Assembly (NCBI RefSeq): GCF_013201035.1
Contig: NZ_CP053707.1
Span: 1,612,001-1,676,000, forward strand
DNA length: 64,000 bases
From: Arthrobacter sp. NEB 688
Lineage (GTDB): Bacteria > Actinomycetota > Actinomycetes > Actinomycetales > Dermatophilaceae
Reading direction: 5' to 3'
The position numbers were made by a program, and so were the translations under genes. Of this stretch, positions 35,070 to 38,989 are shown piece by piece. Under the pieces are notes generated by a model that searched no databases, was not told the origin of the DNA, and saw only the letters and a program-made list of their open reading frames with translations. Positions within the stretch are counted from its first letter, which is position 1. Every line of letters begins with the position of its first letter.

Positions 35070-36383
35070 GTGCTCACCGCCTTCGGCCGCGCGTTCAAGA
35101 CGCCCGACCTGCGCAGGAAGCTGCTCTTCACGCTGTTCATCATCGTGATCTTCCGGCTCGGCGCCCACGTGCCGACCCCCGGCGTCAGCTACCCGCTCGT
35201 GCAGAAGTGCATCGCCGGTGCCGACAACAGCAACCAGCTGCTCGGGCTCATCAACCTCTTCAGCGGTGGGGCACTCCTCCAGCTGTCGATCTTCGCGCTG
35301 GGGATCATGCCGTACATCACGGCGAGCATCATCGTCCAGCTGCTCACCGTGGTCATCCCGCGGTTCGAGGCCCTCAAGAAGGAGGGCCAGGCCGGGCAGA
35401 CGAAGATGACGCAGTACACGCGCTACCTGACGATCGGCCTCGCGGTCCTCCAGAGCTCCACGCTCATCACCTTCGCGCAGAACCCGCAGACGCTGTTCAA
35501 CAACCCGTCCTGCACGAACATCCTCACCGACAGCTCGGTCGTGACCATCCTCATCATGGTCCTCACGATGACCGCCGGCACCGGCGTCATCATGTGGATG
35601 GGTGAGCTCGTCACCGACAAGGGCGTCGGCAACGGCATGTCGCTCCTCATCTTCACCTCGATCGCCGCGCAGTTCCCGACCTCGCTCTGGGACATCCAGC
35701 AGCGCGCCGGCTGGGGCGTCTTCCTCACCGTCATCCTGCTCGGGCTCGTCGTCATCGCCCTCGTCGTCTTCGTCGAGCAGAGCCAGCGGCGCATCCCGGT
35801 GCAGTACGCCAAGCGGATGGTCGGCCGGCGCGTCTACGGCGGCACCTCGACCTACATCCCGCTCAAGGTCAACATGGCCGGTGTCATCCCGGTCATCTTC
35901 GCGAGCTCGCTGCTGACGCTGCCCACGCTCGTCGCGCAGTTCAACCAGGGCGCCAACGGGGTCAACCCCGGCTGGGTCGACTGGATCCAGAGCTACCTGA
36001 CCCGCGGTGACCACCCGATCTACATGGTGCTGTACACCGCACTGATCCTGTTCTTCACGTTCTTCTACGTGTCGATCACGTTCAACCCGACCGAGGTCGC
36101 CGACAACATGAAGAAGTACGGCGGCTTCATCCCGGGTATCCGCGCCGGGCGACCCACGGCCGAGTACCTCAACTACGTCCTGACCCGGATCACCGTGCCC
36201 GGCGCGATCTACCTCGCGCTCATCTCGCTCCTCCCGCTCGTCGCGCTGGTCCTCGTCAACGCCAACCAGAACTTCCCGTTCGGTGGCACGTCGATCCTCA
36301 TCATCGTCGGTGTCGGACTCGAGACCGTGAAGCAGATCGAGGCCCAGCTGCAGCAGCGTCACTACGAAGGGTTCCTCCGTTGA
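35070..36383 (+). CDS. secY: preprotein translocase subunit SecY
   Basis: 437-residue channel of the Sec translocon with ten predicted membrane helices. GTG 35070 ([38 protein letters not shown]) follows ACGGAGGA. The plug-region start is standard, and the signature [15 protein letters not shown] plus the cytoplasmic loop ([15 protein letters not shown]) are clear. The end shares one base with adk (TGATG). A terminator lies between it and rplO, so it probably has its own promoter. Confidence 0.97.
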
Positions 36384-36943
36384 TGCGCTTGATCATCCTG
36401 GGTCCGCCCGGTGCCGGGAAGGGCACGCAGGCCTCCCGCATCGCCGAGCACTTCGGCATCCCCGCCATCTCCACCGGCGACATCTTCCGCGCCAACATCA
36501 AGAACGAGACCGAGCTGGGGCAGCAGGTCAAGGCGATCCTCGCCGCCGGCGGCTACGTCTCGGACGAGATCACCAACGCCATCGTCGAGGACCGCCTCGG
36601 CCAGGACGACTGCGCACGGGGCTTCCTCCTCGACGGCTACCCGCGCACCCTCGCCCAGGTCGAAGCGCTCGACGGGATGCTCGCCGCGTCCGGCGGCTCG
36701 CTCGACCGCGTCCTCGAGCTGACCGTCGACGACGAGGTCGTCGTGGGTCGGCTGCTCAAGCGCGCCGAGATCGAGGGCCGCGCGGACGACACCGAGGACG
36801 TCATCCGCGAGCGGATGGCCATCTACCACCGCGAGACCCGGCCGCTGTCGCAGACCTACCGCGAGCGTGGCCTGCTCGTCACCGTCGACGGTGACGGCGA
36901 GGTCGACGCCGTGACCGAGCGGATCACCTCCGCCCTCGCCTGA
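36383..36943 (+). CDS. adk: adenylate kinase
   Basis: 186-residue kinase converting ATP and AMP to two ADP. P-loop GPPGAGKGT at residues 8-16, AMP site [20 protein letters not shown] and the short LID ([19 protein letters not shown]) without the zinc Cys, as in actinobacterial short-form enzymes. ATG 36383 overlaps the secY stop. In many actinobacteria map follows directly; here a hairpin-flanked gene lies between. Confidence 0.97.
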
Positions 36944-36966
36944 CGCACCACCTGGGCGCGTCCCCA

Positions 36967-37028
36967 GTCGAACGACGAGAACATGCCGTGCGAGCCGAGG
37001 CTTGCGCGGCATGTTCTCGTCGTTCGAC
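36967..37028 (+). repeat. 62-base hairpin repeat, copy 1
   Basis: Two perfect 22-base inverted arms (36967-36988 and 37007-37028; core GAACGACGAGAACATG) around an 18-base loop whose ends also pair (GCGAGC with GCTTGC, one G-U). Starts 23 bases after adk. No T-run follows, so it is not a classical terminator, though it may stall transcription. Copy 2 lies at 38019-38080. Confidence 0.9.
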
Positions 37029-37083
37029 CGATGCCTGTGGATGACGACCCAGCCACGGGTCGCTCGCGGAGCACCATCCCCGG

Positions 37084-38013
37084 ATGGATGCCACGCCTCT
37101 GCCGCCCGAGTTCCGGGGCGCCCCCTTCGCCGTGGGGGCAGCCCGGCGGGCGGGTGTGGGCGCACATCGTCTGCGCAGGTCGGACCTCGTGCGTCCCACC
37201 CGTGGCGCGCGGTGCCACGACGTGCCTGCCGATCTCGTGGCCCAGATGCGTGCCTGCGCCCCCGGGCTGGCCGACGGAGTCGCCTTCTCGCACGTGACGG
37301 CCGCGCGGTGGTGGCGCCTCCCGCTGCCCTCGGACCTCGAGCAGCTGGACGGACTCGACGTCATGACCCGGTCGGGCTCGGGGCAGCCGCTGCGCCGGGG
37401 GCTCCGCGGTCACCGCGGTGTGGAGTCGCGCGCGGTCGTGCGCGACGGGAGCGTCGTCCTGGTCGAGGTCGCGGACACCTGGTGCGACCTCGGGGACCTC
37501 GGCAGGCGGCGGCTCGGCGTCGAGGACCTCGTGGTGGCTGGGGACGCGGCCGTCACGCGCATCGACGAGGCGGCAGGCGTGACCCGGGCGGAGTCGGTGG
37601 GGCGGCAGGTGCTGGCCGAGACGCTCCGACGGCGGGTCCGCCCGCGTGGCGCGGTCGCCCTGCGGCAGGCGCTCCTCCTCGTGCGGCCGGGGGTCCGGTC
37701 CGCGCAGGAGAGCCGGACCCGGGTCGTCTTCCACGAGGCCGGCCTGCCCGAACCCGAGGTGAACGCGGTCATCGCCGACCGTGCGGGCTGCTGGCTCGCC
37801 GAGGGGGACCTCGTCTGGAGGCAGCAGCGCGTGGTCGCCGAGTACCAGGGAGAGGTCCACGCCGACCGTCGTCGGCGCAGCGCCGACGCGTCCCGTCGAG
37901 GGCTGCTCGTCGACGAGGGGTGGAGCGTCCACGAGGTCTGGGCCGAGGACCTCGCCTCATGGGGGCGCCGGGCGGCGCTGGTTCTTCGGGTCCGCCGCTC
38001 CCTCGGGCTGTGA
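37084..38013 (+). CDS. AbiEi-like N-domain and DUF559/Vsr-type nuclease-fold protein
   Basis: 309-residue protein between two copies of one hairpin. The N-terminus (FRGAPFAVGAARRAGVGAHRLRRSDLVRPTRGAR) matches the winged-helix start I know from actinobacterial AbiEi-like proteins. The C-terminal 110 residues look like a DUF559/Vsr-type restriction-endonuclease fold: Glu209 (ESRTRVVF), Asp242 (GDLVW), Glu253-x-Gln255 (AEYQGEVH) and His259, then Asp268 and LLVDEGWSVHEVWAEDL. These are likely catalytic, by family. ATG 37084 has GGAG about 15 bases upstream. Function unknown: a stand-alone nuclease, a repeat-associated enzyme or a toxin-antitoxin relic are all possible. Confidence 0.8.
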   Translation: MDATPLPPEFRGAPFAVGAARRAGVGAHRLRRSDLVRPTRGARCHDVPADLVAQMRACAPGLADGVAFSHVTAARWWRLPLPSDLEQLDGLDVMTRSGSGQPLRRGLRGHRGVESRAVVRDGSVVLVEVADTWCDLGDLGRRRLGVEDLVVAGDAAVTRIDEAAGVTRAESVGRQVLAETLRRRVRPRGAVALRQALLLVRPGVRSAQESRTRVVFHEAGLPEPEVNAVIADRAGCWLAEGDLVWRQQRVVAEYQGEVHADRRRRSADASRRGLLVDEGWSVHEVWAEDLASWGRRAALVLRVRRSLGL

Positions 38014-38018
38014 CACCA

Positions 38019-38080
38019 GTCGAACGACGAGGACGTGCCGCGTCGCGCAGGGGCAAGACGGCATGTTCTCGTCGTTCGAC
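38019..38080 (+). repeat. 62-base hairpin repeat, copy 2
   Basis: Same arm length (22), loop length (18) and orientation as copy 1. The right arm is identical to copy 1; the left arm differs at two bases, both A to G, which still pair as G-U in plus-strand RNA. Starts 5 bases after the nuclease-like gene stop; the map promoter follows. Confidence 0.88.
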
Positions 38081-38121
38081 CGGGGGGATGCGGGGATGTG
38101 GGGGTGCGTCGGCGGCGCGGG

Positions 38122-38134: not shown

Positions 38135-38989
38135 ATGGGTTTGTTCAGCCGTGACCGCGTCGAGGCCAAGACCCCGGAGCAGCTCGCGAAGATGCGGACC
38201 GCGGGCCTGCTCGTCGCCCGCACCCTCGAGCTCGTCAGCGCGCAGGTGCGCCCGGGGATGACGACGCTCGACCTCGACGCCCTCGCCGAGGCGCACATCC
38301 GCGACCACGGGGGCATCCCCAACTTCCAGCTCGTCCCGGGCTACCGGCACACGCTGTGCACGAGCGTCAACGACGAGATCGTCCACGGCATCCCGCGCGG
38401 GCGCGTGCTCGAGGCCGGCGACCTGCTCTCGGTCGACTGCGGCGCCGAGGTCGACGGCTGGAACGGCGACTCCGCCCTCACGCTCGTCGTCGGTGGCCGC
38501 GAGGCCGGGCGCCCCGAGGACCTCGAGCTGAGCGACGACACCGAGACCTCCCTGTGGGCCGGCATCGCCGCGCTGCGCGTCGGCCGCCCGCTCTACGACG
38601 TCGGCGCCGCCGTCGAGGACTCGCTGACCACCTCCGGCGACGGCCGCGGCCGTGAGTACGGCATCGTCGAGGACTACGTCGGTCACGGCATCGGCACCTC
38701 GATGCACATGGACCCGCAGGTCCCGAACTACCGCGTCGACGGCCGCAGCCCGACCGTCGTCGACGGGATGACCATCTGCATCGAGCCGATGGTGACCCTC
38801 GGCGACCAGGACAACACCGTGCTCGAGGACGAGTGGACCGTCGTCACCCGCGACGGCTCGCGCGCCGCGCACTGGGAGCACTCGATCGCCGTGACGGCCG
38901 CGGGCACCTGCGTCCTCACCGCGCTGGACGGGGGCCGCGAGCGGCTCGCCGCGCTCGGTGTGCCCTTCGCCGACATCGCGCCCGCCTGA
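38135..38989 (+). CDS. map: type I methionine aminopeptidase
   Basis: 284-residue metalloprotease that removes the initiator methionine. Metal ligands: Asp107 (EVDGW), Asp112 (NGDSA), His184 (VGHGIG), Glu217 (IEPM) and Glu248 (HWEHS); substrate His84 (DEIVHGIP). ATG 38135 is probably leaderless; open frame upstream runs into the hairpin and is not used. It is usually the partner of adk in this superoperon, and is separated here by the hairpin-nuclease unit. Confidence 0.96.
   Translation: MGLFSRDRVEAKTPEQLAKMRTAGLLVARTLELVSAQVRPGMTTLDLDALAEAHIRDHGGIPNFQLVPGYRHTLCTSVNDEIVHGIPRGRVLEAGDLLSVDCGAEVDGWNGDSALTLVVGGREAGRPEDLELSDDTETSLWAGIAALRVGRPLYDVGAAVEDSLTTSGDGRGREYGIVEDYVGHGIGTSMHMDPQVPNYRVDGRSPTVVDGMTICIEPMVTLGDQDNTVLEDEWTVVTRDGSRAAHWEHSIAVTAAGTCVLTALDGGRERLAALGVPFADIAPA

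Follow-up and report, generated by a model that had tools for sequence, protein, structure and literature searches.

A Vsr-fold nuclease gene family associated with dispersed 58-nt palindromes in Arthrobacter sp. NEB 688 and its relatives

The locus and its two palindromes

The window, i.e. the whole stretch of 64,000 nucleotides of Arthrobacter sp. NEB 688 that was analyzed (NZ_CP053707.1, positions 1,612,001 to 1,676,000, forward strand), contains a gene for a 309-residue protein that lies between two palindromes and is bordered by two genes that we take to be adk and map, as in the first-pass annotation (Table 1). This annotation had placed the gene and both hairpins correctly. Its description of the hairpins as near-identical held for the arms (20 of 22 positions in the 5' arm, 22 of 22 in the 3' arm) but not for the 18-nt centers, which share 4 of 18 positions; overall, 46 of 62 positions are identical. 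The common orientation that it ascribed to them is meaningless for a palindrome. Both copies read GTCGA...TCGAC at their ends. Folded as single-stranded DNA they gave z values of -11.2 and -6.0 relative to dinucleotide shuffles, and with up to three mismatches allowed the genome contained 22 matches to the 22-nt arm, half of them on either strand. They form 11 sites with a distance of 40 nt between the starts of their two arms; the reversed arm, used as a control, had 0 matches. The two hairpins are therefore not due to chance. A terminator and promoter scan of the locus returned nothing, with no intrinsic terminator (GC hairpin followed by a T tract) between 36300 and 38400. No Rfam family reached its cut-off; the three miRNA families that did appear, all below their cut-offs, were rejected as generic hairpin matches.

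Table 1. Features of the locus, in window positions; bit scores are those of the covariance model R1.
Feature	Position	Strand	Remarks
Presumed adk, left border gene of the slot	36383..36943	+	Name as in the first-pass annotation
Upstream palindrome, type A	36967..37028	.	58-nt core CGA...TCG at 36969-37026; R1 63.2 bits (copy in training set)
309-aa protein gene	37084..38013	+	ATG start; AbiEi/Rv2827c-like part and C-terminal Vsr-fold, EDxHD-type nuclease
N-terminal winged-helix-like region, about residues 1-50	37084..37233	+	From predicted secondary structure; boundary and assignment approximate
C-terminal nuclease domain, about residues 201-309	37684..38013	+	DUF559/MTES_1575, 3r3p match, invariant residues
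Downstream palindrome, type A	38019..38080	.	58-nt core at 38021-38078; R1 54.9 bits (copy in training set)
Presumed map, right border gene of the slot	38135..38989	+	Name as in the first-pass annotation

An AbiEi-like part joined to a Vsr-fold nuclease

The structure model of the protein (52 sequences) reached a pLDDT of 95.2. In a Foldseek comparison it matched the AbiEi antitoxin Rv2827c (1zel; probability 0.96-0.98, E 0.012, 240-247 columns) as well as the catalytic domain of the EDxHD homing endonuclease I-Bth0305I (3r3p; probability 1.00, TM-score 0.73 by target length, E 0.09), and the earlier guess of an AbiEi-like/Vsr-like nuclease withstands this comparison. The E-values of the matches of interest were weak (0.012-0.14, none reaching 0.001), the top row was a mitoribosome protein (E 1.7e-3), and no HUH enzyme was found among the 50 matches listed. 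A profile search retrieved an "endonuclease-like protein" (3hrl, E 2e-4) and PvuRts1I (E 2e-3), with 3r3p at only E 0.86, and the first rows from a viral library were mainly DUF559, Vsr-type and other endonucleases. Foldseek aligned ranges were not shown for 1zel; because the nuclease matches sit at profile positions 231-303, we place the AbiEi-like part of the model approximately in the N-terminal region, for which helices at residues 17-22 and 27-30 and strands at 36-39 and 42-44 are predicted.

All residues that are invariant in the 52 sequences fall within the C-terminal third of the protein. E209, D242, E253, H259 and D268 are among these 12 positions and, without a superposition on 3r3p, may be read as the order E-D-x-H-D. 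Pfam searches among the 52 family members detected DUF559 in 23 and MTES_1575 in 18 (E up to 0.01). AbiEi models of a defence library matched up to 16 of the 52, the window protein itself remaining unmatched; it had no match among the PADLOC defence models either, and an NCBIfam search gave nothing significant. With dN/dS values of 0.07-0.33 in 12 pairs, the coding sequences show the protein to be under purifying selection. Homologues were not found in a phage search, and a plasmid search yielded two partial matches, in Arthrobacter replicons.

Many homologues are flanked by palindromes with matching arms

The association of the gene with palindromes is real and general. Homologues were picked by protein similarity only, and at 80 loci from named genomes (the best 80 of 183) hairpins were present on both sides in 29 cases, one of which includes a poly-G artefact, on one side in 35 and on neither in 16, so that at least one hairpin accompanies the gene at 64 of the 80 loci. 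Within 250 bp of the gene we counted 96 hairpins in 39,268 bp (2.44 per kb), and more than 600 bp away from it 24 in 284,546 bp (0.084 per kb), a 29-fold difference in density at the same loci. A palindrome about 50-170 nt ahead of the match start was common.

After removal of L128 (a near copy of L108) and L133 (the poly-G artefact), the upstream and downstream arms of 27 two-sided loci agreed on average at 17.7 of 20 positions within a locus and at 11.0 between loci, and none of 20,000 permutations reached the observed sum. Three of the 27 loci scored 8 or less, perhaps through a failure of the trimming rule. Identity was 95% for the arms and 56% for the centers in 18 equal-length pairs, thus it is the arms, not the centers, that are held alike. 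The same was seen at the adk-gene-map loci of the genus and its near relatives, where paired hairpins share arms that differ between species; in G005 and G017 the upstream member of the pair was not recovered. In other genera, more distant homologues (L050, L051, L055 and L059) lay between paired hairpins of 59-74 nt with different arms.

We also considered whether the arms track the N-terminal domain in particular. A Mantel test of arm distance with protein distance showed no such preference (r 0.35 for the N-terminal and 0.37 for the C-terminal part), and the binding domain is therefore not pinned down. The flanks of 82 loci define 25 contexts, of which the two largest have 21 and 13 members. 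From these neighborhoods we infer that the gene is mostly inherited vertically, at a small number of loci in each lineage, and moves over longer times. The context of the window gene was common to 12 of the 80 named loci.

Gain, loss and replacement in the adk-map slot

Among 38 genomes with a match, 30 adk loci were read, 12 of them in the genus and 18 outside. Six congeners carry the gene in the adk-map slot: G000, which is the genome of the window (4,077,299 bases, one contig), G002, whose contig stops before map, G003, G005, G010 and G011. The slot is empty (24 bp) in G001, and the 270-bp gap of G008 holds what by eye we judged to be a decayed hairpin and a gene remnant. G004 and G009 have another gene in this position, presumably spermidine-synthase-like. 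A different, antisense gene with an AbiEi_4 domain occupies the slot of G007 (L083) and is boxed by yet another hairpin type; a similar antisense unit is present in G006 (L082), with one hairpin found and a 3' part that appeared disrupted by eye. The slot hairpins of these two units are of the ACGCAGGAC type, and a solo ACGCAGGAC-looking hairpin lies upstream of the gene of G003 (L033:1294-1349).

At all 18 loci read outside the genus the gene was absent, with gaps of 0-101 bp, one of them containing a short 35-nt hairpin. Together with G001 these are the empty adk-map sites whose existence the first-pass annotation had asked about. Outside the 30-locus set, the gene adjoins map in G032 and in G017, where the contig begins at the gene. 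Empty, decayed and refilled slots fit homing into an empty cognate site, for which there are no cleavage data.

Palindrome families in the genome and genus

The covariance model R1 was built from 34 aligned 58-nt hairpins of the genus and its near kin and misses others. In G000 it returned 93 both-strand rows corresponding to at least 47 distinct places, one of them partial; with 150 candidates scored, this is a lower bound. The 45 classed copies comprise 12 of type A, 14 of type B and 19 of type C, leaving out the matches at 1448838 (partial) and 1953164 (out of register). The twelfth type A copy, at 1404808, is weaker than the 11 detected by the arm search. The type A hairpin is hence not confined to the locus. 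R1 matches were obtained in 22 of 58 relatives and in none of the 12 genomes without a protein homologue.

Exact type A palindromes were found in G000 (8), G011 (6), G002 (4), G010 (4) and G005 (3) and in none of the other seven of the 12 genomes of the genus; every center measured 18 nt with gaps of 4-34 permitted. A gene boxed by type A occurs only in G000 and G011. No gene boxed by type B was found in G000, and this type boxes the orthologue in the sister species G003 and G002. Its arm matches per strand numbered 26/26 in G003, 12/8 in G000 (as an orphan), 6/7 in G002, 5/3 in G005 (a variant arm), 3/4 in G010, 2/1 in G008, 0/2 in G001 and 0/1 in G004, with 0 in four genomes. Type C boxes a paralogue in G000 (1952178-1953092, 50% identical to the window protein, hairpins at 1952088 and 1953164). 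The four genomes in which a gene is boxed on both sides by type C arms contained 10-18 type C matches per strand (up to three mismatches; G000 15/18, G006 13/15, G007 10/12, G010 12/14), versus 0-7 in the other eight: 4/7 in G001 (one variant arm), 4/4 in G002, 3/5 in G011, 1/2 in G005 and 0 in G003, G004, G008 and G009. G011 has a relic of the type C-boxed gene with an internal stop. The case of G005, where a gene in the context of the type C gene is accompanied by C-like but degenerate hairpins, fits a pairing of enzyme and palindrome less well, and a few type A or C copies occur in genomes without the matching boxed gene. The 11 matches of G001 in the type C arm search (L260 and others) have one identical variant arm, CGAGATCGGGCAACACGCAG, and four of them are found in the first 750 bases of a contig, as though they belonged to a longer repeat.

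Of 20 possible Watson-Crick pairs, type A forms 18.7, type B 17.5 and type C 17.2. Our expectation that the orphan type B would be the most decayed failed, as it is no more decayed than type C.

Some other homologues and DUF559 genes of G000 were associated with further hairpins. A DUF559 gene at 2183112, which only distantly resembles the window protein, stands between two hairpins of its own, 55 nt long and 93% alike; the pair around this gene (2183112-2183327; L368:722-777 and 1723-1777) has arms different from the other types. Two other DUF559 matches (ORFs of 1279 and 880 aa) had no such pair in the stretch read. Members of yet another hairpin family, at 4010268, 4011685 and 4011836, lie on either side of the homologue at 4010692 without boxing it tightly; these three (4010268-4011906; L248:1669-3307) have GCACGTGCGGGGTTATCGCTG-like arms. 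The homologue at 3761568 has one short hairpin.

Solo palindromes at orthologous sites and their gene context

Solo copies come and go at orthologous sites, as judged from seven sites of G000 that were picked for good flanks and compared across relatives; the gene names given here (ilvC, IF-2-like) are presumed. At 3104225, type B was present in G000, G003 and G010, the site was empty in G001, G002, G005, G006, G008 and G011, and other sequence was found in G004, G007 and G009. At 3785190, G000 has type A, G003 type B, G010 a B variant and G005 a partial copy; none was detected in G001, G002, G004 and G009, and G006, G007, G008 and G011 were unplaceable or had longer sequence. The 3' end of the presumed ilvC carries type A in G000, G002 and G010, type B in G003, none in G005 and G008 and other hairpins or sequence in the remaining five genomes. 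Downstream of the IF-2-like gene, type A occurs in G000, G005, G010 and G011, type B in G003 and another arm type in G002, with decayed or other sequence in the remaining genomes. A GC-rich unit of about 100 bp, which includes the last codons and the stop of this gene and is duplicated or repeated in some species, was noted at the same 3' end (L308 in G004, L313 in G009, L310 in G006 and L314 in G010). At 2975285, an A copy neighbors a B copy in G000; type A occurs in G002 and G010 and type B in G003, none is present in G001, G008 and G011, and the remaining genomes have other sequence or were unplaced. The two palindromes of G000 (2975285-2975419; L220) stand in tandem 19 nt apart, and the relatives read with a palindrome there (G002, G010 and G003) hold only one type each. 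The element at 1404808 was found in none of the seven relatives compared, and at 3894128, where the left flank was unplaceable in all 11 relatives, G003 has a type B hairpin. Three sites that were aligned gave no clear target-site duplication, with a possible TGA repeat at one of them only.

According to a rough gene caller, on which all gene contexts rest, 32 of the 47 places in G000 are no more than 60 nt away from the 3' end of a gene (A 12/12, B 10/14, C 10/20). The 23 non-overlapping type A and B cases were convergent (9) or tandem (14) and never divergent; the 16 of type C were convergent (5), tandem (6) or divergent (5).

These contexts bear on the possibility that the protein is an AbiEi-like autoregulator, the palindromes its operators, the solo copies its regulon and the nuclease part secondary. 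Rv2827c and AbiEi do autoregulate via inverted repeats of similar overall size (PMC7319586), the palindrome that commonly precedes the match start by about 50-170 nt would suit an operator, and so would the five divergently placed type C copies. Yet the second copy lies downstream of the gene, most of the 47 places, and all of type A, are close to gene 3' ends, none of the non-overlapping type A or B copies is placed divergently, the solo copies are present or absent at orthologous sites, and invariance is restricted to the C-terminal third of the protein. We therefore regard a purely regulatory role as unlikely, without dismissing it.

Fixed length, symmetry and the question of DNA or RNA

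When trimmed from CGA to TCG, 65 of 73 hairpins measured 57 or 58 nt, with varying arm sequences. Hairpins without these ends were excluded from the count, and three of 38 nt look like trimming errors. The gapless alignment of 34 58-nt hairpins had two-sided changes at 20 of 24 pairs, 90.2% of its cells were paired, and its covariation score was 0.526 as opposed to at most 0.182 when slid. The core ends are CGA...TCG in all 34, which were chosen by that rule, so that length and ends are not independent evidence in this set. Standard pairs (G-U counted) also occur farther inside, at positions 21/38 in 27 and at 23/36 in 24 of the 34 hairpins; a simple dyad would not need this inner pairing. Neither GTAG nor a GT[AG]G foot was present in these aligned palindromes.

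Mismatches in 62 gene-flanking hairpins were G-T in 21 and A-C in 19 cases, and in 20 tandem solo palindromes G-T in 6 and A-C in 15. Because G-T, which RNA tolerates, is about as frequent as A-C, which it does not, the palindromes give no sign of selection on an RNA hairpin, as expected of DNA. This weighs against RNA structures or terminators at gene 3' ends that spread passively with the nuclease gene as a bystander. Their position after stop codons and the presence of other hairpins in the same places in some relatives would agree with such elements, but the locus has no T-tract terminator and no Rfam family at its cut-off, and neither the near-fixed length of 57-58 nt nor the locus-specific matching of arms around one gene family would be expected, nor would a correspondence of arm type and enzyme lineage in additional genera, of which some cases have been seen already. 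We consider this explanation improbable.

Relation to known systems

In REPtrons, as described in PMC6006769 and PMC3733652, an enzyme gene is flanked by its own palindrome family, a genome may have several families, every one with an enzyme of its own, and the copies are dispersed, extragenic and mostly located after genes. The gene family of the window is likewise flanked by its own palindromes, on both sides or one, and these have dispersed extragenic copies in families specific to the enzyme, the exceptions being the orphan type B and the few unmatched A and C copies. The comparison with REP/RAYT pairs drawn in the first-pass annotation is thus valid as a likeness of arrangement. The enzyme of the window, however, combines a Vsr-fold EDxHD-type nuclease with an AbiEi-like part and is not of the HUH/Y1 type, and its palindromes lack the GTAG foot and are of near-fixed length at about 58 nt. 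The system resembles a REPtron in how it works, but neither of the defining criteria, the enzyme and the GTAG foot, is fulfilled.

TnpA-REP is the published proposed route of REP dispersal (PMC3733652 and PMC6006769), and another transposase such as RAYT/HUH, for which the genomes were not searched, or plain recombination might likewise spread the palindromes, the nuclease merely using or tolerating them; this seems quite doubtful, as boxing and arm matching belong to the nuclease family in several of its lineages and the aligned palindromes have no GTAG foot. Least credible is self-recognition or defence, with the palindromes marking the chromosome and the enzyme restricting DNA that lacks them or being checked by them: AbiEi models match some family members and PMC3710099 names a Vsr-type nuclease domain in conflict systems, but the gene's neighbors are the presumed adk and map, the window protein has no PADLOC match, and about 47 places in 4 Mb look too sparse for site-by-site protection.

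With I-Bth0305I the protein shares the catalytic fold and, as read from its invariant residues alone, the order E-D-x-H-D. I-Bth0305I appears to dimerize on a target of nearly 60 bp (PMC3943268), close to the size of the palindromes. It is listed as a mobile intron protein, whereas the window gene stands free between two copies of a dispersed palindrome. If the palindrome is the site, insertion moreover destroys no site, unlike with a homing endonuclease, and intact palindromes remain on both sides. The likeness to AbiEi and Rv2827c extends from the fold match to the geometry of the inverted repeats: the sites bound by Rv2827c are paired inverted repeats of 23 bp with a 13-bp spacer, 59 bp in total, and AbiEi binds two repeats of 23 bp with a spacer of 3 bp (PMC7319586). 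The window protein differs in its nuclease domain and dispersed sites, and no AbiEii toxin gene adjoins it, the neighbors being the presumed adk and map. A Vsr-type nuclease domain of the MTES_1575 kind has been named in fusion with HEPN and other domains (PMC3710099), and MTES_1575 is also matched by 18 of the 52 members of the window family. We found no association of DUF559/MTES_1575 nucleases with palindromes, nor any other published palindrome-nuclease association, among the papers listed in searches limited to open-licence PMC papers.

A proposed enzyme-repeat pair and its implications

We favor the reading, with a probability of roughly 0.6, that gene and palindromes form an enzyme-repeat pair in which the protein binds the duplex palindrome and its activity spreads and homogenizes the copies. 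The comparisons establish that enzyme lineages are paired with their own arm type, that the palindromes are dispersed and of near-fixed length, that sites may be empty, decayed or refilled, and that the fold has two parts. Binding to the palindrome is inferred, as are its cleavage and the spreading driven by it, the latter two because of the dispersal, the presence or absence at orthologous sites and the concerted change of the arms. Since the published sites of both relatives are about 60 bp, a fusion of an AbiEi-like part with an EDxHD nuclease leads one to expect a duplex site that is symmetric, about 58 bp long and free in its center, and the element matches this expectation. Mainly on these grounds we prefer binding of duplex DNA to binding of RNA or a single-stranded hairpin.

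In such a pair the AbiEi-like winged-helix part would bind the arms of about 20 bp in a two-fold symmetric duplex site of 57-58 bp, one protein subunit per arm, and the EDxHD/Vsr-fold nuclease parts would sit near the unconserved center and cut or nick there. If such breaks were repaired with another copy as the template, or if ends were wrongly joined at the 3' ends of genes, the palindrome would be brought into new intergenic sites and the arms of all copies would stay alike, with drifting centers. The gene and the two copies that box it would be retained together and now and then move or be lost together. Cuts at the enzyme's own sites might be survived through regulated expression, nicking or cutting of some conformations only. 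The residual pairing in the center, the orphan type B and the divergent placing of some type C copies are not explained.

The first-pass annotation had proposed a mobile or repeat-maintaining unit, of which "repeat-maintaining" fits better and "mobile" less well for a gene that seems mostly vertically kept, an inference made without activity data. A general lack of hairpins at homologues elsewhere, a hairpin unique to the locus, or an identical unit in all relatives without any empty site would have refuted the proposal, and none of these conditions holds.

The chances appear about even that the pair represents a new class of selfish system, i.e. a homing-type nuclease that owns dispersed palindromes of 57-58 bp in place of a single insertion site. 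Such an enzyme would bind the palindromes as a dimer by means of its AbiEi-like domain, spread and homogenize them and change its arm specificity in step with them; the layers A, B and C of a genome would then record its past and present enzymes, and the plan would recur in several DUF559/AbiEi-type lineages of Actinobacteria. The literature consulted ties dispersed bacterial palindromes to HUH transposases only and leaves some families without an enzyme, such as the CGTC REPs, which have no dedicated transposase (PMC3733652). If the reading as an enzyme-repeat pair is true, a second, unrelated type of palindrome-owning enzyme would explain part of this gap, a set of unnamed DUF559/AbiEi-like genes in Actinobacteria would gain a function, and natural nucleases would be at hand whose recognition sites, about 58 bp long, are spelled out next to each gene in the genome sequence.
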